From contig NZ_JAGSHT010000007.1 of assembly GCF_019947135.1 (NCBI RefSeq), positions 1-64,000 on the forward strand: 64,000 bases of DNA, read 5' to 3'. A program made the position numbers and the translations under genes. The notes beneath the pieces are model-generated. The model was not told the origin of the DNA. It saw nothing but the letters and a program-made list of their open reading frames with translations, and searched no databases. Below, piece by piece: positions 24,086 through 59,430 of the stretch. This DNA comes from Occultella gossypii. Lineage in GTDB: Bacteria; Actinomycetota; Actinomycetes; Actinomycetales; Beutenbergiaceae. Numbering within the stretch: the first letter of the stretch is position 1; each line of letters starts with the position of its first letter.

Positions 24086-24102
24086 TCATCCATGGCGGGT
24101 GA
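24086..24102. promoter_or_regulatory. 17-bp regional palindrome (perfect)
   Basis: TCATCC-ATGGC-GGGTGA, a perfect match to TCAYCC-N5-GGRTGA. It lies between divergent DUF1269 (start 23992) and the small protein at 24199. On the minus strand a GACGAT -10 begins 22 bp away (24063-24058). No equally clear -10 was seen on the plus strand. Confidence 0.75.
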
Positions 24103-24198
24103 GCCCGACGTTGCCGAGCCTCGTCCGGAACGCGTGAGGCGTGGACGGCGCACACCAACGAGGCTTGGCCCCCGACCGAACGGGCGGACGGAGGTGCG

Positions 24199-24405
24199 AT
24201 GCGCTACGACATCCGGGTACGCGGGCGCTTCGACCGGGCGCTGGTGACCGCGCTGGGCGACATCACGATCACGGCAGCGGAGCGCGACACGATCCTGCAC
24301 TGCCAGGTTCCCGACGTCGCCGCGCTGGTCGGGATCCTGCACGCCGTCACGGCGCACGGCCTGACCGTGAAGGAGGTCCGGACGGCGGATGTCGAGTCCC
24401 CCTGA
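24199..24405 (+). CDS. Small protein of a four-member paralogous family (copy 1)
   Basis: 68 residues: it starts MRYDIRVRGRFDRALV and continues with DTILHCQVPDVAALVGIL and HGLTVKEVRTAD. A GGAGGTG ribosome site precedes the ATG. Three relatives are encoded at 31103, 42598 and 45445 in this window, all sharing the start M-[LR]-Y, a Gly at position 9, a central [TS]-x-x-x-x-x-V-P-D-like stretch and a C-terminal GL/GI-x-x-x-x-[LVM]-R strand. The pattern suggests a small alpha/beta (ACT/ferredoxin-like) fold. Function unknown. It is convergent with the SulP gene, ending 5 bp from it. Confidence 0.8.
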   Translation: MRYDIRVRGRFDRALVTALGDITITAAERDTILHCQVPDVAALVGILHAVTAHGLTVKEVRTADVESP

Positions 24406-24410
24406 GCGCC

Positions 24411-26162
24411 TCAGCCGGAACCTGGGTCGGGTGCCGCGTCCCCGTCGGTTCCGCCACGCGCAGCGGGTCCGTCGCCCGTTGCCGGCCGGTGTCGAACCCG
24501 CCGGCTGCTCGCCGCCTCCATGGCGTGCGTCGTCGACTCGCCGACGACCTCCGTGGCCGGGAACACCTCAAGGGCTGCCCCCACCCCGCTGAGCCGCTCC
24601 TCGTCCCAGTACTTCACCATGTCCGTCCCGAGGCCGCTCAGGTAGAGCCGCCCGCCGTTGACCTCCAGGCGCCGGGCGTACTCGGAGACCACCGTGAAGA
24701 AGGTGACCCCGAGGGTGGTCCGGCCCCGCAGACGCAGCACGACGGCCGCGTCGGTCGCCATCCCGGGATCGGGCAGCCGGGCCTGCAGGGTGCGCGCACC
24801 CGCGTAGAACAGGCTGCCGTAGACGTCCAGGACGACGACGTCACCCGCGGCGAGGGCCGCCGGCGCCGGGCCCTCGACCAGGTGACCCTCGTCGTCGCGC
24901 TGCAGTCGCACCACCTTCAGGTCCACGGCCTCCTGGTTGAGCTGGACGAGAAGTGAGAGGGCCACCCCGATCCCGACGGCGACGACAACCGGCAGGGCGA
25001 GTGTCGCCACGAAGGTGGTGGTGAGCGCGATCTGGGAACTGGCGCCGGCGCTCCAGATCGTGCGGATCCGCGCAGGATTCAGGGACCCGACGGCCGCGTA
25101 GATCAAGATCGCGGCCAGCGTCGGCATCGCCACTCGGCCGACCAGGCCCGCGAAGACCACCAGGATGAGGAGCATCCAGACGCCGGAGAAGACCGCAGCC
25201 CAGTGCGTCCGGGCGCCGGCGGCGACGTTGATCGCGGTCTGCCCGACGGAACCGCCCACCGGCATCCCCCCGAAGACCCCGGATGCCACATTCCCCCAGC
25301 CCTGGGCACCGAAATCGCGATTGGCGTCCGAACGCCGTCCGGACGGGTTCGGCGCGGACTCGGCGACACCCGCGCCCTGCACGAGCACGATGGCAGCGAC
25401 GGCGAAAGCACCACCGACCAGACCGAGGGAGAACGCCCCGGGATCGGGAATCTGCGGCAGGGGTAGGCCCGTGGGGATGGTGCCGACGTCGGACACATCG
25501 GCCACCGTGAGCCCGAGGATCGCGACCGCGGCCGTCGGGATGACCAGCGCGATCAGCGAACTCACCATCGCCAGACGCCCTTTGCCGAGGACGATGAGCA
25601 GCGCCAGGGCCGACAGCCCGATCAGCAGCGACGCGGGATCGATACGCCCGGGATGGCTGATCACGTCCCAGGCCTTGAGGAGCGCCACGGCTCCGGAAGC
25701 ATCCGCACCGGTCAGGTCCGGCAGCTGCCCGAAGATGATGTTCACCGAGACCCCGGTGAGGAAGCCCGTCATCACCGAATGGGAGACGAACCTCGTGTAC
25801 CGGCCCAGGCGCGCCAACCCAGCCGCCACCATGAGCCCTCCGGCGATCAGCGTCAGCCAGATGATCGCGTCGGACCGCTGCCCCTGCGGCACAGTCGAGA
25901 TGGCCGAACCTGCCGCGAGCGCAGCCGCGCTGGTGGTGGTGATGACCATCATCCGGGTACTCGCGGTCATCCCGCCCACCAGCGGACCCGCGAAGCTCGC
26001 GTAGAGGCCGTGCACGGGGTTCACCCCGGCGAGCACCCCGGAGGCCATGCCGTCCGGCACCGACGAGATCGCGCCCGGCAGTCCCGCGACGATGTCGGTC
26101 CGCAGGTCCTTCCACCGCGGCAGGCGCGGGCGACGGCGCGCGCGAGCGGACTCCTCGGTCAC
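24411..26162 (-). CDS. SulP family anion transporter (copy 1)
   Basis: 583 residues. The N-terminal signature LPGAISSVPDGMASGVLAGVNPVHGLY, ten or more membrane helices, and a C-terminal STAS domain (residues ~440-545, DVVVLDVYGSLFYAGARTLQ) mark a SulP/SLC26 carrier for sulfate, bicarbonate or related anions. A low-complexity hydrophilic tail follows. The start is GTG, overlapping the AI-2E family gene by 4 bp, so both form one operon behind the palindrome at 27295. Substrate not decidable. A second SulP gene lies at 32533. Confidence 0.93.
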   Translation of the reverse strand: MTEESARARRRPRLPRWKDLRTDIVAGLPGAISSVPDGMASGVLAGVNPVHGLYASFAGPLVGGMTASTRMMVITTTSAAALAAGSAISTVPQGQRSDAIIWLTLIAGGLMVAAGLARLGRYTRFVSHSVMTGFLTGVSVNIIFGQLPDLTGADASGAVALLKAWDVISHPGRIDPASLLIGLSALALLIVLGKGRLAMVSSLIALVIPTAAVAILGLTVADVSDVGTIPTGLPLPQIPDPGAFSLGLVGGAFAVAAIVLVQGAGVAESAPNPSGRRSDANRDFGAQGWGNVASGVFGGMPVGGSVGQTAINVAAGARTHWAAVFSGVWMLLILVVFAGLVGRVAMPTLAAILIYAAVGSLNPARIRTIWSAGASSQIALTTTFVATLALPVVVAVGIGVALSLLVQLNQEAVDLKVVRLQRDDEGHLVEGPAPAALAAGDVVVLDVYGSLFYAGARTLQARLPDPGMATDAAVVLRLRGRTTLGVTFFTVVSEYARRLEVNGGRLYLSGLGTDMVKYWDEERLSGVGAALEVFPATEVVGESTTHAMEAASSRRVRHRPATGDGPAARGGTDGDAAPDPGSG

Positions 26163-27259
26163 GTCGGTTCCTGCCCGCGGGTGACCGGGTCGTCACGCAG
26201 CAGTGCCGAGTCGATCAACTCGTGCCGCTGCAGGTAGGTCGAGATCACCGCCTGCGCGGTCGCCGCGAGGGGCAGGCCGATGAAGGCGCCCATCGGTCCG
26301 AGCACCGCGCCGAACGCGATCACCGCCACGAAGGAGACGGCCGGGTTGATCTCGAGCGCCTTGGACGAGACCCGGGGCGAGAGGATCAGGTTCTCGAACT
26401 GTTGATAGGCGATGATCCACGCCAGCACCACAAGGCCCAGCCCGATCGACTGCACGCCGGCCACCGCGATCGGCAGTGCGCCCGCGATGTAGGTGCCCAC
26501 GGTCGGCACGAACTGGGACACGACGCCGACGAACAGGCCGAGCGGCACGGCGTAGTCGAGGCCGATCACCGCGAGGAAGAGCGTGGTGCAGGTGGCTGAG
26601 ACGAGCGCCAGCACGACGCGGGAAGCGATGAAGCCGGAGAGCTTGTCCTGGGCGATCCCCCACATCGCGAGCACGCGAGCCTGCCGCATCGGCTCCAGCG
26701 GCCGGCAGATCGCGATCCGCAGCCGGGGTCCCGCGGCAAGCATGTAGAACGCGATCAGCAGGACGCCCGTCGCGGTGATGAAGCCTGAGGCGAGCACCCC
26801 GCCGATGCCCAGGATCCCGCTGGCGAGATCGGCGCCGTACCGCTCCAGGGCCTCGGTCACGAGCGCCTGCCGGTCCGGGATCTGGCCCGCGAGCGCCGGG
26901 TCCAGGCCCGCCCGGACGGCGACCAGCGCCTCGTCCAGGGCGGCCACGAGCTGCACCAGCTGGGTCACGAACAGGTTCCCGAAGACGGTGATGAGCGCGA
27001 CGACGGCGACGAGCCCGCCCACCATCACGGCTGCCGTCGCCACGGCCCGCCGCCACCGGTGCCGGACCAGTGCGTTGACCGCCGGCTCCATCGCCAGAGC
27101 GAGCACGAACGCGATCAGAACGGTGGAGACGATTCCCCGGAGGGAGCCGAGGATCCCGAACGCGATCACCCCCACGATGGCGGCGATGACCACCTGGACG
27201 AGCGCGCGGGGCAGCCATGGCGGTGGTCGCCGGTCCACGACGGGTAGGGACGCGCTCAC
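26159..27259 (-). CDS. AI-2E family transporter
   Basis: 366 residues from the GTG at 27259. Several membrane helices and the AI-2E/PerM family tail are visible: VPLGLFVGVVSQFVPTVGTY, LILSPRVSSKALEINPAVSF and LGPMGAFIGLPLAATAQAVI. The family includes TqsA and PerM and also some Na+(Li+)/H+ antiporters, so autoinducer export is not assured. The start is decided by the promoter: the palindrome at 27295-27311 overlaps the alternative GTG at 27298, and a TACCGT -10 (27272-27267) lies 7 nt before 27259, implying a leaderless mRNA. It is co-transcribed with SulP copy 1. Confidence 0.88.
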   Translation of the reverse strand: MSASLPVVDRRPPPWLPRALVQVVIAAIVGVIAFGILGSLRGIVSTVLIAFVLALAMEPAVNALVRHRWRRAVATAAVMVGGLVAVVALITVFGNLFVTQLVQLVAALDEALVAVRAGLDPALAGQIPDRQALVTEALERYGADLASGILGIGGVLASGFITATGVLLIAFYMLAAGPRLRIAICRPLEPMRQARVLAMWGIAQDKLSGFIASRVVLALVSATCTTLFLAVIGLDYAVPLGLFVGVVSQFVPTVGTYIAGALPIAVAGVQSIGLGLVVLAWIIAYQQFENLILSPRVSSKALEINPAVSFVAVIAFGAVLGPMGAFIGLPLAATAQAVISTYLQRHELIDSALLRDDPVTRGQEPT

Positions 27260-27294: not shown

Positions 27295-27311
27295 TCACCC
27301 CATCCGCATGA
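27295..27311. promoter_or_regulatory. 17-bp regional palindrome (one mismatch)
   Basis: TCACCC-CATCC-GCATGA; the second arm has C for G at its second base. It lies between the end of the LuxR gene (27326) and the AI-2E/SulP operon, which it faces with the standard 22-bp distance to the -10. Confidence 0.65.
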
Positions 27312-27325: not shown

Positions 27326-30073
27326 TCAGAGGAGGTCGCGCTCCACAGCGATCCGGACCGCCTCCCGCCGCCCGGACGCGCCCAGTTTGCGGTAGACGGC
27401 ACGCATGTGCGTCTTGACCGTGTTCGCCGAGACGAACAGGGACCGTCCGATCTCGGCGGCCGTCATGGGCGAGCGGAGGTAGGTCAGGACCGTCATCTCC
27501 CGGTCCGTGAGTTCCCAGAACGAGGGCGACCGGCGGAGCGGGACCCGATCTCGCATTCGCGTGACGAGCTCGCCGACGGTCGTGCCGTACTGGGTTCCCC
27601 AGGCCAGGTGCTCGGACAGCAACGGAGCGATGGCGTTCCCGTGAAGCACGAGCGGGCGCGTCAGATCCGACTCGAACGATATCCGGAGCGTCCGCTCGAG
27701 CAGCACATGGGCCTCTTCCACCGCCCCCTCCTCGGCGGACATCAATGCCTCGGTCAGATTCGCGTACATCGCGATGTGCGCGGTCCGCCGCGAGGCGGGG
27801 ATGCCGGCCAGCACGGCACGTGCGTCCGCGTACGAGCCGGCGCGCCGGTGCAGGTCCGCGATCCAGACGAGGATGCTGGACTCGAGTTGGCCGGGGTCCA
27901 TCACGGTGACCCTGGCCAACGCGGCGACCGGGTCACCCAGGACGTCTTCGCGTATCGCCTCCACTATCTCCGCGATCGGCTCGGTGAGCCTGCCACCCCC
28001 GTCGTCCGGATCAGGCTGCGCCGTCACCCGAGCGACCTCGACGAGCGCGGCGTCGTCCGTGGACAGCCCGACGATCATCAGGACCAACGCCGCCCGCCTG
28101 CGGAGGTTTCCCTGCCGGGGCTGGGCCCGCCGGATGGCCTCCTCCAGATGCCCGCGAGCCTGCTCGGTGTGATCGCGCCAGTACTCGGCCACACCCAGGA
28201 CGAGATGAGCCGGGACGAGCGAACTGGAACCGGCCCGCCCGGCGCGTCGGCCGTCGTCGACCGCGGCACGCGCCAGCCGTGCGGCCTCGTCGAAGCGACC
28301 GAGGATCCACAGTGGGACCGGCGCCATGGCGGTGCTCGCCGCTGCGAGCTCGTGCAGATCGCAGCCGGAGGCGAGGTCCTCGGCCCGCTGGAGGTCCGCC
28401 AGGGCACCGGCGGGATCGTCGTCCAGCCGAACTGCCGTTTCACCGAGCAGGAAATGCGCGAAAGCCTCGACCGCACGGTCCCCGGTGTCGTCGGACGGAA
28501 GGAGTTCGCGGACCCGGTCGCGTGCTGTGACCACCTCCGTATCCCGGCCTGCCACGAACAACTGGAGCAGGGCGTCCACGAGTTCGACGTGGCGTGCGCG
28601 TTCCGTCGGCAACGTCGCGGCCCGGGCCTGTGCGCGCGCCCTCGTCGCGCTGCTCGTGCTGCGCTGGTCGAGGAACTCGCAGAGCGCGAGCACCAGCAGG
28701 ATCTCGGCGTCATCGGCCTCGGCCGACGGTAGTTGTGCGCACAGGCGCCGGAGGAGCTCCGTCTCGCCGCGGAGCAGCCGATCCGGCCATTGCGCGAGCA
28801 CCAACTCGAGCGCGAAGGTGCCATCCCCGCCCGCCACGGCGAGCGAGACCGCGAGCGGCACATCGACCGGAGCCCAGTACCGGGCGGCCCGGCGACGCAG
28901 GCTCAGCGCCGCCTCCGGATCGTTGCGCTGCAGGATCGCCCGGCACTGCGACGCGAACAACGCGTGCCAGCGGAACTCCTGCTCGTCACCCCCGAGCGCG
29001 GTCAGGAAGACGCCGAGCCGAACGCACTCCTCCAGGAGTGCTGCCCCGTGCGGATGGAGCACCTCGGCCAGGTCGCCTCTGATCCGGTCACCGATGGTGG
29101 CGTGCAGGATGAACTCGGCCAGCTCCGGGCGCAGTGTGCCGAGGATCTCGTCCGTGAGGTACCCGGTCAACGGCAGTTCCGCCCCGCCCATGGCCTGCAG
29201 CCGACCGTGCCGGTCCGTCGAGGCGCCGAGCGCCACGATCGCCATCCGGGTCGCGACGGGCCAACCACCGGTCGACTCGAGCAGGAGGTCGGTGTCCGGT
29301 TCGTCCAGCTCGAGCCCGGACTGCACTGCCAGGGCGGCTACCTCCGCCCGGTCGAAGCACAGGTCGGCCTCCCGAAGTTCTCCGAGTTCGCCGTCCAGAC
29401 GGCGCTTGTGCACGGGCAGGTTCGGGTCGGACCGGCCGGACAGGATGAGCCGCAGGTTCGGGGGCGCGAACCGCATCAGCCGGCCGACCACCTCCCGGGA
29501 AGCCACGTCATCCACGGCGTGCAGGTCGTCGATGATCAGCACGATCGGCGTCCGGAGTTCCTCCAGCGCCGTCAGTAGCGCGTCGTATTGTTCGGGATCC
29601 ACCCGGTACCGTGGCACCAGCGCCAACAGGCGAGCCCCGTCGGATCGTCCGGACCGGCGCACCGCGGTCCGGAGTGCGTTGACCAGGCCACGGAACAACC
29701 TGCGTGGGTCGTTGTCGAACTCGTCGATGGTCAACCAGGCGACGGTTGCGTCCGTCCTCGAACACCACATCGTCAGCAGGGTGGACTTGCCGTAGCCCGC
29801 GGGTGCGGTCACGAGCGTGAGCGGGTGGTCGGCCACGCACTCGGTCAGCCGGTCCAGGAGCCCGCGGCGCTCAAGCAGGTGCGCCCCGACGTTCGGGACC
29901 TCGATCTTCGCGGACGGTGTCGTCGTCGCCCAGGCCATGTCGCCGTCGGGCTCCGGAGATGTCTCCTCGCGGGCAGCCAGGTCGAAGAGCGGGTGCCGAA
30001 CGCCCGTTGCACCCGAGTCCGCCATGACGCGTTCGGCGTCCTCGCGTGCCCCCCTGAGCCCATCCGAGATCAT
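27326..30073 (-). CDS. LAL/MalT-type LuxR regulator 1
   Basis: About 915 residues. An STAND-type NTPase has Walker A APAGYGKST (residues ~90-98) and Walker B IVLIIDDLHAVDD. A long helical TPR-like sensor region follows. The C-terminal LuxR helix-turn-helix reads LTDREMTVLTYLRSPMTAAE, then IGRSLFVSANTVKTHMRAVY, then RKLGASGRREAVRIA. Such proteins bind ATP and an inducer, oligomerise and activate transcription. The ATG at 30073 has an AGGA site 7 nt upstream; Met at 30025 or 29938 remains possible, and an in-frame start exists at 30208. No convincing copy of the regional palindrome was found upstream, unlike the other two LuxR genes. It lies 144 bp downstream of the GAP-family gene. Confidence 0.9.
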   Translation of the reverse strand: MISDGLRGAREDAERVMADSGATGVRHPLFDLAAREETSPEPDGDMAWATTTPSAKIEVPNVGAHLLERRGLLDRLTECVADHPLTLVTAPAGYGKSTLLTMWCSRTDATVAWLTIDEFDNDPRRLFRGLVNALRTAVRRSGRSDGARLLALVPRYRVDPEQYDALLTALEELRTPIVLIIDDLHAVDDVASREVVGRLMRFAPPNLRLILSGRSDPNLPVHKRRLDGELGELREADLCFDRAEVAALAVQSGLELDEPDTDLLLESTGGWPVATRMAIVALGASTDRHGRLQAMGGAELPLTGYLTDEILGTLRPELAEFILHATIGDRIRGDLAEVLHPHGAALLEECVRLGVFLTALGGDEQEFRWHALFASQCRAILQRNDPEAALSLRRRAARYWAPVDVPLAVSLAVAGGDGTFALELVLAQWPDRLLRGETELLRRLCAQLPSAEADDAEILLVLALCEFLDQRSTSSATRARAQARAATLPTERARHVELVDALLQLFVAGRDTEVVTARDRVRELLPSDDTGDRAVEAFAHFLLGETAVRLDDDPAGALADLQRAEDLASGCDLHELAAASTAMAPVPLWILGRFDEAARLARAAVDDGRRAGRAGSSSLVPAHLVLGVAEYWRDHTEQARGHLEEAIRRAQPRQGNLRRRAALVLMIVGLSTDDAALVEVARVTAQPDPDDGGGRLTEPIAEIVEAIREDVLGDPVAALARVTVMDPGQLESSILVWIADLHRRAGSYADARAVLAGIPASRRTAHIAMYANLTEALMSAEEGAVEEAHVLLERTLRISFESDLTRPLVLHGNAIAPLLSEHLAWGTQYGTTVGELVTRMRDRVPLRRSPSFWELTDREMTVLTYLRSPMTAAEIGRSLFVSANTVKTHMRAVYRKLGASGRREAVRIAVERDLL

Positions 30074-30217
30074 CCGGTCGTCCTGCCCGAGTCCCCAGCC
30101 ATGACTGACGCACACCGCCTCGTGCCCGTCCCCCTGCAGCCATCCAAGCGAGCGCGTCACATCCCTGTCAACAGGCCCGCCCTCGCGGGTCACGCGTGAG
30201 CGCGGCACGACGACACG

Positions 30218-30892
30218 TCAGACGAGGATGGCGATCGCATCCCCGATCACCTTGGTTCCCAGGACCAGTAGCAGGACGGACATGATGACGGCGTTGTTCG
30301 CCAACATCCAGGCCCGCATGCCCTCGAGCAGCCGCGCCGCCCGCTCGCCCATCACGAGGTAGAGGACCACCGGGAGGATGACACCGATGCTGGCCACCAC
30401 GGTGAACACCGCCAGGGCCACGAACTGATCGCCGCGGGCACCTGTGGCGTGCGCGATCGCGGTCGCCCCCGCGACGACCAGGAGCAGGTTCTTCGGGTTG
30501 ATGCCGCCCAGCAGGAACGCGAGACCGAACGCTTTGACGGGGGTGAACGTCTCGATCGCGGCCATCCACTTCGGCGCCACCGGCTCAACGTCGCTGCCGG
30601 GCCGGCCATGCCACTGCTTCACCGCGAGGAACAGCAGCCCCAGGCCGAGTGCCAGCTTCAACAGGCCCACCCAGACGGGCGTGGCGCCGTCGTCCCCGCC
30701 GGCCGTGTCGCCGACGAGGAGCAGCACGACCGATCCGACCACGGCGATGCCCGCGACCCATCCGAGCACGAACGCGATGCCGTTCGACCTGGCCCGCGCG
30801 GAGACCAGCATCAACACGACCGCCACGATCGGCATCGGGGAGACCATCACACCGACCGCTATCGGCAACGACTGACCGATCGCCTCGCCCAT
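30218..30892 (-). CDS. GAP family (Sap/SfLAP-like) membrane protein
   Basis: 224 residues with about six membrane helices in the LysE-like arrangement of the GAP/Sap family (sulfolipid-addressing protein): LPIAVGVMVSPMPIVAVVLM, then GLAFLLGGINPKNLLLVVAG. Mycobacterial relatives act in glycolipid export; here the substrate is unknown. An AGGAGG ribosome site 7 nt upstream fixes the ATG at 30892. The palindrome at 30978 lies upstream, with a GAGGAT -10 22 bp from it on this strand. Confidence 0.88.
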   Translation of the reverse strand: MGEAIGQSLPIAVGVMVSPMPIVAVVLMLVSARARSNGIAFVLGWVAGIAVVGSVVLLLVGDTAGGDDGATPVWVGLLKLALGLGLLFLAVKQWHGRPGSDVEPVAPKWMAAIETFTPVKAFGLAFLLGGINPKNLLLVVAGATAIAHATGARGDQFVALAVFTVVASIGVILPVVLYLVMGERAARLLEGMRAWMLANNAVIMSVLLLVLGTKVIGDAIAILV

Positions 30893-30977
30893 CCCGGGCC
30901 TCCTCGTCCTCGCCACACCGACCGCCATGGCCGGATCCCGACCCCTGTCATCCTCGCCCGGTCCGCCGGCGGCGCAC

Positions 30978-30994
30978 TCATCCCGAACGGGTGG
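30978..30994. promoter_or_regulatory. 17-bp regional palindrome (one mismatch)
   Basis: TCATCC-CGAAC-GGGTGG. It lies between the divergent GAP-family gene and small-protein copy 2. GAGGAT (minus strand, 22 bp away) and GAGACT (plus strand, 23 bp away) are possible -10 elements, so the site could serve both genes. Confidence 0.6.
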
Positions 30995-31318: not shown

Positions 31319-31335
31319 TCATCACGTTGGGGTGA
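31319..31335. promoter_or_regulatory. 17-bp regional palindrome (one mismatch)
   Basis: TCATCA-CGTTG-GGGTGA, starting 7 bp after the stop of small-protein copy 2. A CAGGCT -10-like element begins 22 bp downstream (31358-31363), pointing at the DUF7144-SulP-MscS operon. Confidence 0.65.
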
Positions 31336-31418: not shown

Positions 31419-31817
31419 ATGGCGAGGAAGGTGACCGCCTGGGTCGGCTGGATCTGGTTCGCCGGCCTGATCATGCTCAGTTCCGGGGTGTTCAATCTGC
31501 TCAGCGGGATCTACGCGGTGGGTGCACGAGACATCGGCATCGTCGAGGTCGGCACCCAGATCCTGCTCCTGGACGTCAACTCCTGGGGCTGGATCCACAT
31601 CGCGATCGGTGTCCTGCTGATCGTGGTCGGCATCTGCCTGCTCGCCGGGCAGGGCTGGGCCCGGATCGGCGCCGTGGTCGTGGTCGGCCTGAACATGATG
31701 ACCCAGTTCCTCTACCTACCACTGACACCGTGGTGGTCGATCGTCGTGATCGCCCTCGACATGGTCGTCCTGTGGGCGCTCGTCGTACACGGCGAGGAAG
31801 CCGAACAGGCGTCGTGA
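31419..31817 (+). CDS. DUF7144 family membrane protein
   Basis: 132 residues with four membrane helices: VGWIWFAGLIMLSSGVFNLL, then WGWIHIAIGVLLIVVGICLL, then WARIGAVVVVGLNMMTQFLY, then WWSIVVIALDMVVLWALVV. The layout matches DUF7144. No activity is known. It is first gene of a four-gene operon (DUF7144, membrane protein, SulP, MscS) joined by overlaps or 2-bp gaps and preceded by the palindrome at 31319. Confidence 0.85.
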   Translation: MARKVTAWVGWIWFAGLIMLSSGVFNLLSGIYAVGARDIGIVEVGTQILLLDVNSWGWIHIAIGVLLIVVGICLLAGQGWARIGAVVVVGLNMMTQFLYLPLTPWWSIVVIALDMVVLWALVVHGEEAEQAS

Positions 31818-36650: not shown

Positions 36651-36660
36651 CGGTCCCACC

Positions 36661-51300: not shown

Positions 51301-54300
51301 CGGGTTGAGCCGGCTCACGCAGGCATCCCACGGCCGGTCGCCCGTGACGCCGGCCGTGTTCTCGACCAGGGCGCCGGCCTCGAGCCCGAGCCGGAACTGG
51401 ACCTGGACGGTGATCGTGTACGTCTGCCCCACCTCGAACGCCGTCCCGTCGGGGAACGAGAACGTGAGCGACTCGAGATCACCGACCTGATCGACCGTCA
51501 CGTCGGCCGGATCGGTCGGCAGCGGGTCGCCGCTGGCCGGGTCCGGCGGGTCGCCGGCGAGCGCGTACGAGAAGGGCTCCTCGACGTCGGCCAGCACCAG
51601 CTGCCCCCCGCCGGCGTCCGTCGGCATCGGGTCCGTGACCACCAGATCGAAGATCGGCCGGCTACCGGTGTTCGTGACCGTGATGTTCATCGGGAAGACG
51701 GCGGCAGGCGGCTGAGTGCCGCCGGTGATCGTGCCGTCGAAGTCCTTGACGATCTCGACGGCGTTGGTCGCGTGCGCGTAGACGATCTGTGCGGCCGCAT
51801 CGGCGTTGGCCGAGACCGGCACGAGGTCACCCGTGTCGGGGTCGACGACCAGGTCCGCCCCGGTGACGACGCCGTCCACGGTGTTGCTCGTCACCCCGGG
51901 GGCGGTCTCCCCGGGTGCGGGCTCGTTGCCCTCGAGGTCGGTGAGCACCGGACCACCGGTGCGCATGTCCTCGCGGCGCTCCACCGAGATCGGCACCGAC
52001 TGGACCGGCGTGGCTGGGTTCTCCCAGATCGAACCGTCGGTACGACTGAAGGTGAAGCGCAGGCCCTGGACATCCTCGGGGGCGACGCCGTCGGGCAGGG
52101 CGAAGGTCGCGGACGGCTCACCGTCGCCGCCGACCCACTGGCCCCCGCCGACGACCACGCCGTCGGGACCCTCGGTGAAGGTACCCCCGGTGTAGGCCTC
52201 CACCAGGACCTGCTCGATGGGCGCAGTCAGCGTGGCGCCGTCGAAGGCAACGAAGTCGTAGGAGTTCCAGAACTGCGGATCGCTGTCCTCGAGCACCATC
52301 TCCACGGCTCGCGAGGGCCCGACGGGCTGACCGGTCAGGGTCATCGTCACCGGGCCGGTGCCCGGCTCGACGATCTGCGCCGGGTCGAACGACTTCCCGA
52401 CCACGACATCGATCCCGGCGACCTGCAGCGGCATCGCCGCGTCGTCGTACGCAAGCCGCACGTCCTCGGGGGTACCGCCCGGGTCGTCGATCGTCGCGAC
52501 CGCGCCGTTCGGCACCGGGTTCTCATCGACGACGATCGTGCCGGCGTCGCCATAGATCGGGACCTCGGTGTAGCGGTCCGCGGCCCGCAGCTGCAGCGTC
52601 AGATCCATGCTCCCCGTTGCGGCCGGCATGACGAGCCCGTCGTAGGAGGCCTCGACGCCGACCACGTCCACCAGGTCCGCCGCGGTGAGCGCCTCGGCTC
52701 CGGCCTCGTCGAACTGCGCCGTCGAGCCGTCGACGGCGGTGAGCGTGACGGTCGTGGACGTCGCCCCGGCGGGCGGCGTCAGATCGAGCCCGGTGAGGGT
52801 GAACACGTCGAACGGGGACGTGCCCTCGCCGGTCTGGACGTCACCGGAGTCCGGCGCGCCGGGCTCCACCAGGCGCAGCTGGTCGACCTTCGCCGCGGAC
52901 GCGTTCGTGCCGGTGATCGTGACGACGGTCGAGGGGTAGGCCTCGACGGGGGTATCCGGCGGTGGCACCGAGATCGGGCCACCGGTCCAGTCCTTGGCGA
53001 CGGTCACGTTCAGCGGCTGGTCCAGGATCAGCACGTCGTCGCCGTCGGTGTCGGTGTAGTCGTTGCCCTCGAAGGTGCCGGTGGCACGGGCCGTGTCGTT
53101 GACAAGACCCGGGTCGGCGGTGTTGTAGATCGTGCCGTTCGTGGATCCGAGTACCGGCTCCGTCGGGGCGCCGCGCCGGTAGTCCCGCACCTCGAAGGTG
53201 AGGTTCAGGTGCCGCCCGTCGGCCTGGGTGGAGCGCGCCACGCCGTCACCCGGCTGCGGTGCGAGCGGGTCGTCGGTGCCACGGTTCTCGGACTCGGTGT
53301 AGGTGACCCGCACCGAGGTGGCATCCTCCTGCTCCTCGGGCTCGAGGTCGAAGCCGGGCATCGAGCCGTCACACGGGCACGGATCGTTGATCGCCGGGAC
53401 CCAGGCGCCGTCGATGAACAGCTCGACTCCCACGACCCGGTCGTACTGCATGAGCGGGTCGACCGACGCATCGATCCCCTCGACACGGACGAGGTCGAAC
53501 GCGTCGTAGAAGGAGTCCTCGATCGCGGTGGTCTCCGGGTCGGCGATGTCGGACAGCACCATCGGGTCGACGCCGGAGAAGCCGCTGGTGGACCAGGTCA
53601 GCTGCGCGGTCACCCGGTCGTCCGAACGGGCGAGCACGGACACCGGCGCGTCACCGAGGAACGTCTTGTCGATCGAGTCGATGTCGCCCTCACCGTCAAC
53701 GGGGAACGGGTCGACGGTCGCGCACCCTTGCGCGGGCTCGGTCGGATCGACCGTCCCGGAGGAGGCGCTTGAGGCGCCGCAGTTCGTGAGCGGGTCGTCC
53801 TGCGTCGTCGGGCCGGTGAACTCGGCGACGAAGTTCGGTTGGAACTGGGTGCCGGGCGGGAACCCGTCGCCGGTCGAGTCGAAGACGAACTGCACGCCCT
53901 GGGCGTCAGGGGGCAGGTCACAACTGACGGTGGCCGCCCCGGTGAACGGACCACACTCCGGCGTCGGCGCCGGGACCCACGCGGTCCCGTTCCAGTAGTT
54001 GATGGTCAGGATCGCGCCAGCCGGCACGTCCGTGCTGCGCACGGAGGTAGGGAGGAAGTGGTCCCAGAAGTCGGTCGGGTTCGCCGGGTCCGTCGGGTCG
54101 GAGATCACGACCTGGTCGGCGTTCGTGGTCGACCCGTCCGGTCCGAACGGCAGCAGTTGCGTCGGCAGCTGGACGATGACGCTCTGGCCTGGGACAGCCG
54201 GGATGGTCGACGGCGAGATCACCTTGGTCGTGTCGGTCGCCAGGCGGTCGACCAGGGTGACGAGGTCGGCCGATGCGGTGGTGCCTGCGTTCGGGACGTC

Positions 54301-55788
54301 GGCCGCGATGGTGTTGGGGTGGGTGACGTCGTCGGGTGTCTGGTCGGGGTCGGTGTCGGCGGTGAACGGGATCGTGGCGGAGGCACCGTTGACGAGGTCT
54401 CCGGTGAACTCGACCGAGAAGCCCTCGACGACGCAGTCGGGCGGCGGGTTCGGCAGGGTGTTGACGGTGGTGGTCTCCTGGCTGGGCGTGGTCCCGTCCG
54501 CGCAGGTGAACGTGACGGTCGCCGCCGTCGCACCGGTCGGCCACGTGACCCCGGTCCCGTCACCGGCGGGGCCGAAGCCGGTGAACGTGAGCGGGTCGTC
54601 CCCCTCGAACGGACTCGCAGTCCCCGGGTCCGGCTCGGTGATGGTCATCGACGTCACCGCGGTGCCCGTGTTGGTCGCGCCGAGGGTCACCGTCGTCGGG
54701 TCGCCGGCGCTCACCGTGGCCGGGTCGAAGCTCTTGCTCGCCTCGACCGAGTTGTTCGGTGGCGTGATGACGTAGGTGTCGGAGGCGGTCGTCGGTGTCG
54801 ACTCGCCGTCACCGTGGATGACATAGGAGGAGGTGTCGTTCGTGACCGTCGTCGCCTCGGTGAGTTCGGTCACGGCATCGTTCTGCTGCACCCCGACCGG
54901 GATCGTGGCCGTCGCGCCGGGCTGGATGTCACCGCTGAAGGTGTACCGCACGCCCTGCACGTCCGCCGGGTCGACCGTGTCGTCGATGGGTAGCCACTGG
55001 GTCCCGTCCCAGTACTCCTGCGTGACCGTGTCCGCGTTCGGCGGCATGGCGATGTCACCGGTGCCCGTGTACTCGAGGTAGGTGAACGGGTTGGGCGTGG
55101 CCGTCGGGTCGACCGGGTCCTGGATGACGAGGGTGTCCACCGGGTCGTTCGAGGTGTTCGTGGCACCCAGGTTCATCGTCGCGGCCGTGCCAGGCTCGGC
55201 GAGGGCGCCCTCGGGCTCGATGGACTTCGTCGTCTCGGAGTCGAGGACGAGCGGCACCACCGGCACGATGTCGTCGGAGGCCGACTGCTCGGTCGCGTTG
55301 TCCGAGACCACCGTCGCGGTGTTCGTGATCGGCACGCCGTCCGCGCTGAACGGCAGGTCCGGGTCGACCTGCGCGGTCACGAGGATCTGCACCTGGCCAC
55401 CGTTCGTGACGCTGTCAGCCGTGTAGGTCACCGTGTCCGTATCGGTGTCCGCGACCAGCTCACCGTTGGTCGCGCCCGCCTGGCTCTGGATCGAGGCACT
55501 GACGAGCTCCAGTCCGTCGGGCAGCGGGTCGGTCAGCGTGGTCGGGGTACACGGCTCGGCGTTCGGGTCGGAGCAGGACACCGTGACGAACCACAGCACC
55601 TCGTCACCGGGCTCGTACGGCCCAGTGCTCGTCTCGACCTTCTGGATGCCCCAGGTCGCCGCGAAGGCCGGCAGCGCCGGCACGAGCGAGAACGGCAGCA
55701 CCAGAAGGGCTGTGACCAGCCCGGCCCAGGTGAGCCGACGCCGGCGCAGGTCCGTCCCCGGTCGTGATTGCAGTGTCCGGTCGGTCAT
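48328..55788 (-). CDS. Giant cell-wall-anchored repeat protein (DUF11-like and DUF5979 domains)
   Basis: 2,486 residues. A Sec signal peptide covers residues 1-43 (basic LRRRRLTW, hydrophobic core, cleavage near AFA-AT). The first ~1,700 residues are DUF11/isopeptide-type adhesin repeats rich in Asp, Thr and Pro, for example TNTATVVSDNATEQSASDD. Six DUF5979 repeats follow (see the repeat entry). The C-terminus has a sortase-like signal, IPATG from residue 2452, a hydrophobic helix and a RRRR tail. Ile replaces the usual Leu of LPxTG. It is probably displayed on the cell wall as a long stalk or adhesin. The start at 55788 overlaps the DUF389 stop (ATGA), so it should be co-expressed with that membrane protein. 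No sortase gene is in the window. Confidence 0.9.
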   Translation of the reverse strand: MTDRTLQSRPGTDLRRRRLTWAGLVTALLVLPFSLVPALPAFAATWGIQKVETSTGPYEPGDEVLWFVTVSCSDPNAEPCTPTTLTDPLPDGLELVSASIQSQAGATNGELVADTDTDTVTYTADSVTNGGQVQILVTAQVDPDLPFSADGVPITNTATVVSDNATEQSASDDIVPVVPLVLDSETTKSIEPEGALAEPGTAATMNLGATNTSNDPVDTLVIQDPVDPTATPNPFTYLEYTGTGDIAMPPNADTVTQEYWDGTQWLPIDDTVDPADVQGVRYTFSGDIQPGATATIPVGVQQNDAVTELTEATTVTNDTSSYVIHGDGESTPTTASDTYVITPPNNSVEASKSFDPATVSAGDPTTVTLGATNTGTAVTSMTITEPDPGTASPFEGDDPLTFTGFGPAGDGTGVTWPTGATAATVTFTCADGTTPSQETTTVNTLPNPPPDCVVEGFSVEFTGDLVNGASATIPFTADTDPDQTPDDVTHPNTIAADVPNAGTTASADLVTLVDRLATDTTKVISPSTIPAVPGQSVIVQLPTQLLPFGPDGSTTNADQVVISDPTDPANPTDFWDHFLPTSVRSTDVPAGAILTINYWNGTAWVPAPTPECGPFTGAATVSCDLPPDAQGVQFVFDSTGDGFPPGTQFQPNFVAEFTGPTTQDDPLTNCGASSASSGTVDPTEPAQGCATVDPFPVDGEGDIDSIDKTFLGDAPVSVLARSDDRVTAQLTWSTSGFSGVDPMVLSDIADPETTAIEDSFYDAFDLVRVEGIDASVDPLMQYDRVVGVELFIDGAWVPAINDPCPCDGSMPGFDLEPEEQEDATSVRVTYTESENRGTDDPLAPQPGDGVARSTQADGRHLNLTFEVRDYRRGAPTEPVLGSTNGTIYNTADPGLVNDTARATGTFEGNDYTDTDGDDVLILDQPLNVTVAKDWTGGPISVPPPDTPVEAYPSTVVTITGTNASAAKVDQLRLVEPGAPDSGDVQTGEGTSPFDVFTLTGLDLTPPAGATSTTVTLTAVDGSTAQFDEAGAEALTAADLVDVVGVEASYDGLVMPAATGSMDLTLQLRAADRYTEVPIYGDAGTIVVDENPVPNGAVATIDDPGGTPEDVRLAYDDAAMPLQVAGIDVVVGKSFDPAQIVEPGTGPVTMTLTGQPVGPSRAVEMVLEDSDPQFWNSYDFVAFDGATLTAPIEQVLVEAYTGGTFTEGPDGVVVGGGQWVGGDGEPSATFALPDGVAPEDVQGLRFTFSRTDGSIWENPATPVQSVPISVERREDMRTGGPVLTDLEGNEPAPGETAPGVTSNTVDGVVTGADLVVDPDTGDLVPVSANADAAAQIVYAHATNAVEIVKDFDGTITGGTQPPAAVFPMNITVTNTGSRPIFDLVVTDPMPTDAGGGQLVLADVEEPFSYALAGDPPDPASGDPLPTDPADVTVDQVGDLESLTFSFPDGTAFEVGQTYTITVQVQFRLGLEAGALVENTAGVTGDRPWDACVSRLNPATGVCEADSDVTTVPAAVLAQSKYVRATADDELDVMIDPAAPDQDVECIPDADGFYAYPCTPVIIPGHDETWRIEVDNVGNLPMNRVVLYDRLPTPGDTGSFADSPRGSQWETLLSSASVPTLAVGPAGAALSLYYTTVDDYCMDDLTDPINRPCPVDPTTGWAELGEDVDQATLDAITAVQIVIDFPEGALFVPGEFIALDFETTTPPEVQEAGGRSIAWNSTAAAAVVVTADGTELPLLPTEGTKVGVATASGPLSVLKFVIGPAAGDAPETLLLFVQCTSAIGTPVETVLDPIPITVTAGVPVTVPNLPYGAECTITEDGTNGQTELIVGTVTIDSEDPDDPTTIVAVNRYEVAGIDVSKDVVTDAVDADGEPVPFGPFEVTVECTFLGDPVYAEGYGPDDPMVLPIEDDETVHLDGFPVGSECTVTETGTGNASAVTILVTQGDAEPVPTDGPSTEITLVTDADDGTTGNDVVLTNIYDVGQLDLVKVVAGDGAQAYGTGPFVLAVQCTFDDDGDGSGEPRVVYDATVVLGAAGPLEAQIANLPTGAVCAVTETDDGGATSSVVEPSSVTIGSADTVTVTATNTFDVGSIVLDKVVDGDGADLYGDGPFTVTLECTYEDEPVAIPGGAEREITPGAPVGVDGLPVGAECTVTETDDGDATGTSMTVTVAGEEPVQTGGTSAEVIVPPVDPGGEPTAVGIVATNTFQLGSIQVDKLTEGDGADLYGAGPFGVTLECSFDGESVEIPGGAEREIMPGTPVLYEELPVGAECAVTETGTAGATSTVIAPEGGAVTVPAPAEGDEEPAVATVTVTNVFDLTSLEVVKEIDGDWAASGSDGRFEVTLTCTWMVDGVATDLEIPGGPARVLQAPDDVVATYADLPVGADCELTETVTGEADDTSIVVEIDGTEPVTTTGTTVVVPLTGTTAPGQAQVTVTNAFDPVPPPAPGPADPQIPATGSDAGWLAGAALLLIGAGVFLVIARRRRSTV
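48475..50540 (-). repeat. Six DUF5979-type protein repeats
   Basis: Six tandem units of about 100-130 residues end the surface protein. Each begins with a strand such as GSIVLDKVVDGDGADLYGDG or GSIQVDKLTEGDGADLYGAG, then a conserved CT/CS, then LPVGAECTVTETD, and closes with TNTFDV or TNVFDL. Units four and five are the most alike, suggesting the newest duplication. The diverged outer units suggest old expansion. Confidence 0.8.
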
Positions 55789-56825
55789 GGCTCGACCCTC
55801 TCCCCCACGGTGTGGACGACGATGACCCGCGGCTCCCAAGGAACCAGACTGTCCACCTGGTCAACAAGCGGTGCGATGTCGGGCAACTCGCCGGGACTGC
55901 GCACCTCGACGACGAGGTCCTGGCCGAGCCAGGACACGTCCTCGACGACGGCGTCGTCGACCCCCTCCACCCACTCCTGCGCGGCCGCCCCGGCCTGGCG
56001 CAGCCACAGGTCGGCGAGCAGTGCCTGCACAGAGTTCGCCACCATCGGGACCGCGACGACCAGGACCGCAACGAGAGCGACCAGTGTCGTCGAGCGACGC
56101 CGTCGGGCTCCGGCCGTGCCCCGCACGGCACGCGCCCGCGCGCCGTACCCGACGGCGGAGAAGACCACCGTGGCCGCGACGACGAGCGCGACGGCGTTCG
56201 ATCCGAAGAGGAGCAGCGCGCCGGCGGCCAGAGCGGGCTGGCCGACGCCGAGGCAGACGCCGACCACGCCGAGCGGTGGGACGAGCGAGATCGCGATCGC
56301 GATGCCCGGCAGGATGTCTCCGAGGTCGCGCCGGGTGAGCGCGATGGCCCCCGCGAACCCGGTGGCGAACGCGGCGACGAGGTCACCGACGCCGGGCGCC
56401 GTCCGCCCGGTGACCTGCGAGTTGCCGGCAACCCCGGTCGTTGCGGGCAGGACCAGCGTCACCAGCAGGCCGAGCGCGACCACGACGACAATGCCACCCA
56501 GGACGTAGCCGACCGACCGCAGGATCGCCGAGCGATCCCCCACGACGATGCCGAGCCCGATCCCGAGGATCGGTGTGGACAGCGGTGCGATGATCATCGC
56601 GCCGATCACCGTCGCGGTGGAGTCCGTCACCACGCCGCACACCGCGATCACACCGGCCAGGACCAGCATCACCCAGAATGCGGAGCGCTTCGCACGGGTG
56701 TCTCCGCCGTCGAGGTCGAGCCTGTCGGCGACGGTCGCCGGGTCGCGGCGTTGCGAGTGCGGCACCAGCGCGTCGACGAGGCGGCGCGGGCGGCGCTCAC
56801 CCGTGTCGACGACCGGTGCCTTCAT
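55785..56825 (-). CDS. DUF389 family membrane protein
   Basis: 346 residues. The DUF389 core has about six to eight membrane helices with ATVIGAMIIAPLSTPILGIG and ISLVPPLGVVGVCLGVGQPA. A C-terminal extracytoplasmic-looking segment ends PWEPRVIVVHTVGERVEP. Function unknown; the family has been linked to transport only by its topology. A GGAAGGGG site precedes the ATG at 56825. A perfect palindrome at 56915 with a TACGTT -10 (56891-56886) lies upstream, so the operon DUF389-surface protein is part of the regulon. Confidence 0.9.
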   Translation of the reverse strand: MKAPVVDTGERRPRRLVDALVPHSQRRDPATVADRLDLDGGDTRAKRSAFWVMLVLAGVIAVCGVVTDSTATVIGAMIIAPLSTPILGIGLGIVVGDRSAILRSVGYVLGGIVVVVALGLLVTLVLPATTGVAGNSQVTGRTAPGVGDLVAAFATGFAGAIALTRRDLGDILPGIAIAISLVPPLGVVGVCLGVGQPALAAGALLLFGSNAVALVVAATVVFSAVGYGARARAVRGTAGARRRRSTTLVALVAVLVVAVPMVANSVQALLADLWLRQAGAAAQEWVEGVDDAVVEDVSWLGQDLVVEVRSPGELPDIAPLVDQVDSLVPWEPRVIVVHTVGERVEP

Positions 56826-56914: not shown

Positions 56915-56931
56915 TCACCCGCCCTGGGTGA
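56915..56931. promoter_or_regulatory. 17-bp regional palindrome (perfect)
   Basis: TCACCC-GCCCT-GGGTGA, with fully complementary arms, in the gap between the sulfatase stop and the DUF389 start. Confidence 0.8.
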
Positions 56932-56944
56932 GCGCTCGGCGAGG

Positions 56945-59269
56945 TCAGTCGCGGGCCAGCGCCGCCATGGCCTCGGTCTCGAGGTCGAGATAGCTCTCGT
57001 CGCTGACGTCGATCGCAACGCCGAGGATCTTGCCGCCCGTGAAGGCGAACGGAGCCTGGTACGAGCGGCTGACGGAGTCGGCACTGTCGAAGCCGACGCA
57101 GAGCCCGTCGCCGCAGAGCGTGAACTTTCCGACCTGGGCCCGCATCGGTCCCTCCGCGACGACCTGATCGTCGACGTAGAGCCTCGTGCTGCCGACCGAC
57201 TCCTTGTTCGGTCCAGCTCCTTCGCGGACGAACTCCATCCCGAGCGCGTGTGGTCCGGGAGTGAGCACGTCCGAGACGAAGGTCTGCTCCGGTGGGATCC
57301 CGAGGAAGTTGTAGACGTAGTGCAACTTCCGGTCCGTGATGAACAGGGCGTGCCCACCGAAGCGGGAACCGTGCGCGAACATGATGCCCTCGGCGTCCGC
57401 ACTGATGTCGACGTCCGCGATGATCTTGTAGGACCGACCGCGCACGTTCACGGCCACGCCCTCCGGGACCGCGCTGGTGCCCGCGTAGTAGACGAACCTG
57501 GTCCGCGGCGGTTCGGAGGTGGGGCGGTCGAGAGTAAGTTGATCCATCGCGGTGCGGTCGTCCAGCGGGAGCGCGTTGTTCGCCTCTGCCTCGGCGAACC
57601 AGGACGCGACGAGCTCCTCGACCTTCGCCGGATACTCGTGGGCCAGGTTCGTCGACTCCGACCGGTCCTCGTCGACGTGGTAGAGCTCCCACTCGTCGTC
57701 CTCGAAGTGTCCCTTGCCGGTGATCGGCGCATGGGTGGCCGCGACCTTCCAGCCGTCCTCCCACAGCCCGCGGGTTCCGATCATGGAGTAGAACTGGCGC
57801 TTCTTCCGGGTCGGAGCGTCCGCGTCGTCGAAGCTGTAGCGCATCGACACACCGGCCAGCGGAGCCTGTGCCACACCCCGATACACGTCCGGCATCTCCA
57901 GCCCGGCCAGGTCGAGGATCGTCGGCACGATGTCGGTGACGTGGTGGTACTGATGCCGGATCTCGCCACGCGCCTTGATGCCCTTCGGCCAGTGGATCAC
58001 CAGCGGGTCGCAGGTACCGCCGGAGTACTGGCTGTACCGCTTGAACATCTGGAACGGTGTACTGAATGCGGCCGCCCAACCCGTCGGGTAGTGGTTGTAG
58101 GTCTCCGGGCCACCGAGGTTCTCCAGCTGGGTCAGGTTCTCGGCGAGATCGTCGGGATAGTTGTTGAAGAACTTGTTCTCGTTCACCGATCCGTCCGGTG
58201 AACCCTCGCCGGACGCGCCGTTGTCGGCACAGTAGAAGACGATCGTGTTGTCGAGTTGACCGGTCTCCTCCAGGTAGTCGATGACACGGCCCACCTGGGC
58301 GTCGGTGTACTCGCTGAAGCCGGCGAACACCTCCGCCATCCGGGCGAACAGCCGTTTCTCGTCAGCGCGGAGCGAGTCCCACGGCTTGACGTAGTCGGCT
58401 GGGTTGGCCTGGTCGGCGCCGATCGGGTTGAACGGGGTCAGCTCGGTGCCCGCCGGCAGGACGCCCTTCTCCACCATCCGCGCCAGCACCCACTCGCGGT
58501 AGGCGTCGTAGCCGTCGTCGAAAGCGCCCTTGTACTTGTCGATGTACTCCTGGGGAGCATGGTGCGGCGCGTGGTTGGCCCCGGGGCAGAACCACATGTA
58601 CCAGGGCTTGGACGGGTTCGACGCCTGCTGGTCCCGGACCATCTTGATCGCCCGGTCGGCGAGGTCCTTGGAGAGGTGGTACCCCTCCTCCGGAGTGTAG
58701 GGCTGCTCGATGTAGTGGTTGTCCTCGCACAGGTCCGGGTACCACTGGTTGGTCTCGCCGCCGAGAAAGCCGTAGAAGCGGTCGAAGCCGAGCTGGAGCG
58801 GCCACTGCCGGCGGCTGCCACCGGCGGCGTTGTCCTGCTCGGGCACGTTGTGGTCCTTGCCCAGCCAGAAGGTGCTGTAGCCATTGTCCTGCAGGATGTG
58901 CCCGATGGTCGCACAGTCCTCCGGGATGCGGCCCGAGTTTCCGGGGAATCCGTTGGTGGATTCCATCAGCGAGGCGATCCCGTTCCTGGTGTGGTTGCGC
59001 CCGGTCAGGAAGCAGGAACGGGTCGGCGAGCACAGCGCCGTCGTGTGCCACTGGGTGTAGATCAGGCCGTTCTCGGCGAGCCGCTCCAGTGTCGGCATGG
59101 CGATGCGGCCACCGTAGGGCGTCCACGACGCCATCCCGGTGTCGTCGTAGAGCACGACCAGTACGTTCGGGGCACCGTCCGGCGCCTTGGGCAACTCGTA
59201 CGGGGACCAGTCGGGTACCGAATCCCTGACGTCGAGGTTGATGACCCCGTTGAACTCCTTGGCTGCCAT
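56945..59269 (-). CDS. Type I sulfatase (arylsulfatase family)
   Basis: 774 residues. The formylglycine site CSPTR is in TTALCSPTRSCFLTGRNH (near residue 80), with metal-site residues in VVLYDDTGMASWTPYGGRIA and later FYCADNGASGEGSPDG. The long C-terminal part (residues ~590-774) is a beta-rich domain seen in large bacterial arylsulfatases. There is no signal peptide from the ATG at 59269, so it seems to be intracellular unless exported otherwise. It needs a formylglycine-generating enzyme, not found in the window. GAGAGGGAAGG precedes the start. The shared palindrome at 59414 and a GACGAT -10 (59391-59386) lie upstream. Confidence 0.93.
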   Translation of the reverse strand: MAAKEFNGVINLDVRDSVPDWSPYELPKAPDGAPNVLVVLYDDTGMASWTPYGGRIAMPTLERLAENGLIYTQWHTTALCSPTRSCFLTGRNHTRNGIASLMESTNGFPGNSGRIPEDCATIGHILQDNGYSTFWLGKDHNVPEQDNAAGGSRRQWPLQLGFDRFYGFLGGETNQWYPDLCEDNHYIEQPYTPEEGYHLSKDLADRAIKMVRDQQASNPSKPWYMWFCPGANHAPHHAPQEYIDKYKGAFDDGYDAYREWVLARMVEKGVLPAGTELTPFNPIGADQANPADYVKPWDSLRADEKRLFARMAEVFAGFSEYTDAQVGRVIDYLEETGQLDNTIVFYCADNGASGEGSPDGSVNENKFFNNYPDDLAENLTQLENLGGPETYNHYPTGWAAAFSTPFQMFKRYSQYSGGTCDPLVIHWPKGIKARGEIRHQYHHVTDIVPTILDLAGLEMPDVYRGVAQAPLAGVSMRYSFDDADAPTRKKRQFYSMIGTRGLWEDGWKVAATHAPITGKGHFEDDEWELYHVDEDRSESTNLAHEYPAKVEELVASWFAEAEANNALPLDDRTAMDQLTLDRPTSEPPRTRFVYYAGTSAVPEGVAVNVRGRSYKIIADVDISADAEGIMFAHGSRFGGHALFITDRKLHYVYNFLGIPPEQTFVSDVLTPGPHALGMEFVREGAGPNKESVGSTRLYVDDQVVAEGPMRAQVGKFTLCGDGLCVGFDSADSVSRSYQAPFAFTGGKILGVAIDVSDESYLDLETEAMAALARD

Positions 59270-59413
59270 GTCCGATGGCCTTCCCTCTCCGAGACGAGCG
59301 CGTCGCCGAACCATGGGCCGCCCGGATGGCATTGCACGCATCGATCGGACCGATCGGAACCGACCGGACGGCGTCTGTCCTGCCCATCGTCTGCCTCGAC
59401 CTGGGTGCGATCG

Positions 59414-59430
59414 TCACCCCATCTGGATGA
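59414..59430. promoter_or_regulatory. 17-bp regional palindrome (perfect)
   Basis: TCACCC-CATCT-GGATGA, between the divergent sulfatase and LuxR 3 genes. GACGAT (minus strand, 59391-59386) is 22 bp away and CACGCT (plus strand, 59454-59459) 23 bp away, so both directions have a possible -10. Confidence 0.8.

Follow-up and report, generated by a model that had tools for sequence, protein, structure and literature searches.

The window analysed here is a stretch of 64,000 nucleotides from the actinobacterium Occultella gossypii (contig NZ_JAGSHT010000007.1, positions 1 to 64,000). Within a 35-kb region of it (24086-59430) there are 13 sites of a 17-bp palindrome, TCAYCC-N5-GGRTGA, hereafter the operator, together with the genes of three LAL (large ATP-binding LuxR) proteins, LAL1 to LAL3. 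The operator keeps an exact N5 spacing and a fixed distance to a -10 hexamer NANNNT, lies between genes, recurs ahead of the same gene families and is conserved in other genomes; this operator-promoter module is real and widespread. Which protein binds it, whether it activates or represses, how the genes form operons and which signal is sensed, we infer. We consider it fairly likely that it is an activator operator bound by dimers of LAL GerE domains, probably those of LAL1, and that it controls a conserved regulon of membrane, ion and anion transport and envelope genes.

Operators and genes in the window

A sequence-only reading of this DNA had reported the 13 sites, and all 13 coordinates proved right: six copies are exact, six carry one mismatch and one carries two. 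It had also described an NANNNT hexamer 22-23 bp from most of them. Such a hexamer is present downstream of 12 of the 13, the exception being 44228, which has TTGGAT instead; the -10 positions given needed correction at the 56915 site, by one base, to 56892-56887. The sites and the genes they face are as follows (domains from Pfam).

24086..24102, minus strand: exact operator, -10 GACGAT at 24063-24058; probably drives the DUF1269 gene; conserved in genomes G001 and G002 and in O. glacieicola
23495..23992, minus: DUF1269 membrane protein gene
27295..27311, minus: operator with one mismatch, -10 TACCGT at 27272-27267; probably drives the AI-2E and SulP genes; conserved in G001, G002 and O. glacieicola
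26159..27238, minus: AI-2E family transporter gene, likely start 27238
24411..26162, minus: SulP-type anion transporter gene; overlaps the AI-2E gene end, putative operon
30978..30994, minus: operator with one mismatch, -10 GAGGAT at 30955-30950; would drive the SfLAP gene and probably LAL1
30218..30928, minus: SfLAP family membrane protein gene, start 30928 or 30892
27326..30208, minus: LAL1, AAA/STAND ATPase with C-terminal GerE (LuxR) domain
31319..31335, plus: operator with one mismatch, -10 CAGGCT at 31358-31363; probably drives the DUF7144 gene
31419..31817, plus: DUF7144 membrane protein gene, predicted start
38390..38406, minus: exact operator, -10 CATGCT at offset 23 (38366-38361); would drive the DUF6325 and SHOCT genes and probably pxpABC; arrangement shared with O. 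aeris
37822..38265, minus: DUF6325 gene
37474..37773, minus: SHOCT-domain protein gene
35152..37392, minus: three genes with YcsF and carboxyltransferase domains, which we take to be those of 5-oxoprolinase, pxpA, pxpB and pxpC
39715..39731, plus: exact operator, -10 TAGCGT at 39754-39759; probably drives the DUF2254 gene
39768..41048, plus: DUF2254 membrane protein gene
41054..41070, plus: operator with one mismatch, -10 GATCCT at 41093-41098; probably drives the CLC gene
41122..42480, plus: CLC chloride channel/antiporter gene
42517..42533, plus: weak operator with two mismatches, -10 GAACCT at 42556-42561; faces a small open reading frame (ORF)
42599..42802, plus: this small ORF (MLYDIRVRG...), read from the sequence; resembles ORF66 by eye
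44188..44204, minus: operator with one mismatch, -10 TACGGT at 44165-44160; probably drives the Na+/H+ exchanger gene
42823..44121, minus: Na+/H+ exchanger gene, predicted start
44228..44244, plus: operator with one mismatch, a non-NANNNT hexamer (TTGGAT) at offset 22; faces ORF273
44308..45129, plus: ORF273, without Pfam match, start unsure
45522..45538, minus: exact operator, -10 CACCGT at 45499-45494 facing ORF66; no NANNNT at 22 towards LAL2
45245..45445, minus: small ORF66; a relative in locus L128 also lies behind a site
45634..48237, plus: LAL2, AAA/STAND ATPase with GerE domain, predicted start
56915..56931, minus: exact operator, -10 TACGTT at 56892-56887; would drive the DUF389 gene and probably the giant surface protein gene; conserved in G001 and G002
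55785..56825, minus: DUF389 membrane protein gene; its end overlaps the giant gene
48328..55839, minus: gene of a giant DUF5979-repeat protein (about 2500 amino acids)
59414..59430, minus: exact operator, -10 GACGAT at 59391-59386; probably drives the sulfatase gene; no NANNNT at 22 towards LAL3; conserved in G001, G002 and G003
56945..59341, minus: sulfatase gene
59515..62229, plus: LAL3, AAA/STAND ATPase with GerE domain and a MalT-like TPR match below the Pfam cut-off

The claim of the sequence-only reading that the palindrome marks nearly every transcription unit of the region was too strong: MscS, TetR, glyoxalase, LAL2, LAL3 and VanY are faced by no site with a -10 in the composite and matrix scans described below. 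The giant gene is probably a regulon member, since it overlaps the end of the DUF389 gene.

Several of the window's promoters are kept in three other Occultella species. The Occultella genome (5,844,339 bases) holds nine exact palindromes, six of them inside the 35-kb region. One of the three outside, C10:37109-37125, has counterparts (L161, L042, L048) in three other Occultella genomes, and its -10, TAGCGT, stands at 22 bp in these three species and at 23 bp in the window's genome; the remaining two exact copies have no NANNNT at 22 bp.

Some further observations can be added. In G001 the counterpart of the C10 site (L161) precedes a gene for a HAD-type hydrolase, and a gene with weak likeness to sulfatases lies next to it. 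The giant protein is 66% identical to another giant protein, found near sites in G009 (L088). The two ORFs of about 66 amino acids (42599-42802 and 45245-45445) are alike by eye, and an operator lies ahead of each. A two-mismatch operator (24121-24137, plus strand, GAGGCT at offset 22) is found 35 bp from the 24086 site, directed away from the DUF1269 gene. A one-mismatch copy at 15442 lies outside the 35-kb region, within a gene.

Spacing, promoter geometry and distribution

Could the palindromes be a chance or compositional artefact of GC-rich DNA? Counted in the window alone, those with at most two mismatches are weakly above chance, 20 against 12.0 expected, and one of 100 shuffles of the window equalled 20. 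This agrees with an artefact. As the window-only count is too weak, genome-wide and comparative tests were used instead. With the -10 included (operator-N22-NANNNT, at most two mismatches), the window has 21 matches against 1.1 expected, a number that no shuffle equalled. A scoring matrix was trained on 100 exact composite sites (exact palindrome, 22 bp, NANNNT) from other genera, and the top 13 matches of the window include 12 of the 13 sites, so the motif is not over-fitted to the window. Ten sites score 16.9-28.6, 44228 scores 13.3 and 42517 scores 12.5; at the scores of these 12 sites, 0 to 0.07 matches per window are expected from 15 first-order Markov windows, one of which gave a score of 18.7. 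The site at 38390 scores only about 9, a level at which chance alone gives about one match; the low score is explained by its -10 at offset 23, where the matrix has 22.

The spacing was then evaluated on loci found by a DUF1269 protein profile, with the DNA motif unused in the search; the profile was built from eight proteins of site-bearing regions, which is a mild bias. From 80 loci, 3 of Occultella, 12 non-actinobacterial ones (counted apart) and the near-duplicate L212 were left out, giving 64 actinobacterial loci of 1.18 Mb. For TCAYCC-Nk-GGRTGA with k from 0 to 11, the counts are 0, 0, 0, 2, 1, 77, 0, 0, 2, 1, 0 and 0, while an everted control pattern gives 0-2 per spacer; the 77 palindromes are not independent, as related species remain and at least one locus (L243) is also in the motif-selected set. 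NANNNT begins at offset 22 in 52 and at offset 23 in 31 of 152 orientations, against about 2 (0-7) at an average other offset, and 68 of the 77 palindromes have it at 22 or 23 on at least one side. For one-mismatch sites not selected for spacing (Occultella orthologs included), the hexamer is at offset 22 in 32 and at 23 in 14 of 116 cases. The sequence-only reading had placed its sites between genes, and the comparison of coding with intergenic DNA leaves it standing: of the 77 palindromes, 9 fall in called genes, whereas coding sequence makes up 86% of these loci. The figures for the order set, whose loci were selected by the motif, are 19 of 120 palindromes and 80%. N5 sites were absent from the 12 non-actinobacterial DUF1269 loci and from those of Oerskovia (4) and Cellulosimicrobium (9).

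How widespread is the module? With the reversed pattern as control, the composite was found in 43 of 396 genomes of an order sample (control: 1) and in 65 of 296 genomes of a class sample (control: 5); the two samples share part of their genomes. It occurs in 23 of the 109 genera sampled within the order, and exact sites are also present in further classes. They were seen in Pseudonocardia, Blastococcus, Geodermatophilus, Kribbella, Nocardioides, Aeromicrobium, Actinomycetospora, Rhodococcus, Cellulomonas and a Nitriliruptoraceae bacterium. The reversed-pattern and spacer controls, together with conservation across the class and beyond, exclude a chance artefact, whose probability we regard as practically negligible. 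In one family of the class sample (f38; G539, G557 and G611, for example), genomes of several Mb have up to 12 exact composites scattered chromosome-wide, mostly with TCACCC/GGGTGA.

What kind of promoter does this geometry describe? A -10 running from -12 to -7 puts the palindrome at -51 to -35, with its centre at -43. The shared spacing, the centre near -43 and the activator-type geometry, all put forward by the sequence-only reading, are upheld on the DUF1269 loci, which were not chosen by motif. In class-II activation a GerE dimer binds near -42 in a fixed phase to the -10, and GerE proteins at about this position usually activate. As far as geometry and sequence go, the present layout matches such a promoter: an operator near -42, a fixed phase and no -35. 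A palindrome beside a -10 could also suit a repressor, with the operator lying over the upstream edge of the promoter. However, in the matrix of 100 aligned promoters no conserved -35 is visible under or beside the site, so that the -10 alone would be weak, and the fixed phase of 22-23 bp is a requirement of class-II activation. A repressor operator is therefore very unlikely.

Target genes and the candidate binder

Which genes lie behind the sites? Among 128 genes directly behind exact composites, Pfam families recur as follows: DUF7144 10, SulP 9, AI-2E 9, SHOCT 9, DUF6325 8, sulfatase 7, STAS 7, PLDc_N 7 and MFS 5. Among 108 control genes more than 2.5 kb from any site, there are SulP 2, DUF6325 2 and STAS 2, and the other named families occur at most once, because the control list extends to one-member families. 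These genes were called by a simple codon-position gene finder, not taken from annotation. They are 128 of 148 downstream genes, after dropping the 18 DUF1269 genes by which loci were selected and two at L084 and L117, and 108 of 134 controls, the 26 dropped being mostly from site-free loci and one (L148) a LAL gene. In other genomes, sites also precede genes of glutamate decarboxylase-type, amino-acid permease, cardiolipin-synthase-like, GH15/trehalase-like and P-type ATPase proteins. The gene content of this target set suggests a role in envelope, ion or pH homeostasis.

Which protein binds the operator? LAL1, LAL2 and LAL3 are of the type of about 900 amino acids, with AAA and GerE domains above the Pfam cut-offs. 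A MalT-like TPR match is found in LAL3 (E-value 1.9e-8) and LAL2 (3e-4), both under the Pfam cut-off of 45 bits, and none was reported for LAL1. Of 77 genomic regions retrieved around sites, 13 have a LAL reading frame ending 0-188 bp from a site; these 13 come from different non-Occultella genomes. In the order set, a GerE ORF of 700 or more amino acids has one of its ends within 400 bp of the palindrome in 16 of 120 cases, against 4.2 expected (such ORFs being counted as LALs without individual check of the ATPase domain); for shorter GerE ORFs the count is 0, against 0.6 expected.

LALs also co-occur with sites. A LAL profile, built from 20 sequences whose source regions all hold a site as well, matched 38 of the 43 site-bearing genomes at E <= 1e-60. 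With the profile donors and Occultella excluded, a LAL is present in 17 of 22 site-bearing and 61 of 353 site-free genomes (odds ratio 16, p 6e-9). Among 69 genomes picked for the most part within genera, the 45 site-free ones score lower than the 9 site-bearing ones that had given no sequence to the profile (p 7e-4, from rounded E-value exponents).

Several findings weigh against the LAL regulon proposed here. The co-occurrence test above leaves phylogeny and genome size uncorrected, and loci that are related do not count as independent. The first genes behind sites show no enrichment of GerE proteins (5 of 128, against 4 of 108 controls, or 5 of 109 with the LAL of L148). In the DUF1269 set there is no excess of LAL adjacency, 7 against 5.1 expected; GerE ORFs below 700 amino acids lie within 400 bp of 1 of its 77 palindromes (0.8 expected). 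At E <= 1e-60, five site-bearing genomes (G180, G195, G234, G304 and G339, with one exact composite each) lack a LAL, and 61 genomes with a LAL at this level are without an exact composite. The presence of a LAL only weakly tracks the site at the DUF1269 promoter, which is found in 23 of 36 loci with a LAL and in 18 of 44 without (p 0.047), and in five Cellulosimicrobium loci a GerE ORF of LAL size is present without a site. In the window, the operators beside LAL2 and LAL3 point away from both genes. The role in envelope, ionic or pH stress, finally, is read from gene content alone.

Could a regulator outside the GerE family own the operator, with the LALs no more than co-members or targets within the regulon? 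The DUF1269 loci without excess adjacency and the five genomes without a LAL match would agree with this, and a TetR gene is also in the region. It is at odds with the adjacency and co-occurrence in the order set, and BldM, which uses the same half-site according to the available part of PMC4125116, is itself a GerE protein. We find such a regulator distinctly unlikely. The sequence-only reading had named the three LuxR proteins as candidates; adjacency in the motif-selected set and co-occurrence speak for this, adjacency in the DUF1269 set does not, and the assignment is unproven.

Among the three LALs, LAL1 is the best candidate. LAL1 lies directly behind the SfLAP gene on the same strand and is thus likely autoactivated. 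In O. aeris (G002, L028 3080-4105 and 15228-16208), LAL3 is a remnant and LAL2 is in pieces beside a contig end, while the operators next to them are intact and LAL1 is retained. The decay of LAL3 while sites persist favours LAL1 as the main binder.

These points give a scenario for the mechanism. A dimer of GerE domains would take over the position of a -35 box, covering -51 to -35, and recruit RNA polymerase to the NANNNT hexamer starting 22-23 bp downstream. The dimer would most likely be that of a LAL, an AAA/STAND ATPase of about 900 amino acids with a C-terminal GerE domain, probably LAL1, and LAL2 and LAL3 perhaps share the operator. Being apparently inside its own operon, LAL1 would exert positive feedback. 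The regulon would consist of conserved actinobacterial membrane, ion and anion transport and envelope genes, and would probably respond to stress of the envelope, ionic or pH kind.

On a wider scale, we lean slightly towards a phylum-wide regulon of envelope and ion homeostasis in Actinomycetota, apparently undescribed, with LAL-type STAND ATPases as global regulators acting through the module TCAYCC-N5-GGRTGA-N22/23-NANNNT. If this holds, several domains of unknown function would come under one control, and DUF1269, DUF6325, DUF7144, DUF2254, DUF389 and SHOCT/PLDc_N proteins would be joined in one physiological response. The module gives a precise, testable operator-promoter code and a concrete DNA target for orphan LAL regulators. 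Since targets can be read straight from a genome, induction conditions could be searched for in existing transcriptomes.

Comparison with known systems

Has such an operator been described before? The sequence-only reading knew of no published regulon with it. No report of the operator or regulon was found in the best-ranked open-access literature matches, which leaves its absence from print unproven, and the available part of PMC3581485 holds nothing on the present regulon. The statement needs a qualification, as the same half-site occurs, with an N4 spacer, in the BldM group I sites of Streptomyces (PMC4125116, in part). Their consensus is given there as TCACcCgnncGgGTGA, 16 bp long, and is repeated in the available part of PMC8914203. 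In the excerpt of PMC4125116 the site is intergenic, is proposed to bind a homodimer of this orphan response regulator, and is linked to activation. The S. griseus BldM targets listed in that of PMC8914203 include chaplin, pigment and geosmin genes. As far as these excerpts go, the half-sites TCACCC/GGGTGA are common to both operators, whereas the spacer is N4 (16 bp) in BldM group I and N5 (17 bp) here, with 77 N5 and one N4 in the 64 loci. The BldM group I regulon is one of development, while the present one contains transporters and DUF membrane proteins.

Could BldM or a BldM-like response regulator of the NarL type, rather than a LAL, own the operator? In addition to the identical half-site, BldM orthologs have a GerE domain, and their recognition helix TVKTH resembles that of many site-adjacent LALs. 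Genome G027 has a BldM ortholog plus 11 N5 sites among 20 matches with spacers 2-8. But besides the difference in spacer, a full-length ortholog is present in only 1 of 24 site-bearing genomes tested, and G024 and G030 have one without an exact composite site. The GerE ORFs below 700 amino acids counted above are also nearly absent around the sites (0 of 120 and 1 of 77 palindromes). The full-length orthologs of G024, G027 and G030 are 67-69% identical to the query; G293 and G311 match BldM at 73% over the helix-turn-helix only, among the BldM matches listed for the window's genome none exceeds 45% identity, and no full-length ortholog was found in 16 searched members of its family. The N5 spacing and the rarity of orthologs indicate BldM-like recognition of the half-site but not a BldM regulon. 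The BldM regulon as the identity of the system was thus rejected, and ownership by BldM or a BldM-like regulator is, in our view, unlikely.

The LAL reading finds its closest likeness in the known LAL (large ATP-binding LuxR or MalT-like) regulators, which share with LAL1-3 an AAA ATPase and a C-terminal GerE domain; LAL2 and LAL3 have in addition the MalT-like TPR matches below the Pfam cut-off. Several known LALs are, in the literature excerpts available, pathway-specific regulators of antibiotic clusters, whereas the LAL-linked operator here marks many unrelated units class-wide.

MalT uses different boxes, which are directly repeated. In the DevR/DosR and OsdR dormancy regulons, a GerE dimer binds a palindrome near -42 and controls many stress and membrane targets. 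The DevR/DosR operator core is GGGACT...AGTCCC, the regulator belongs to a two-component system, and the targets differ from those of the present regulon.

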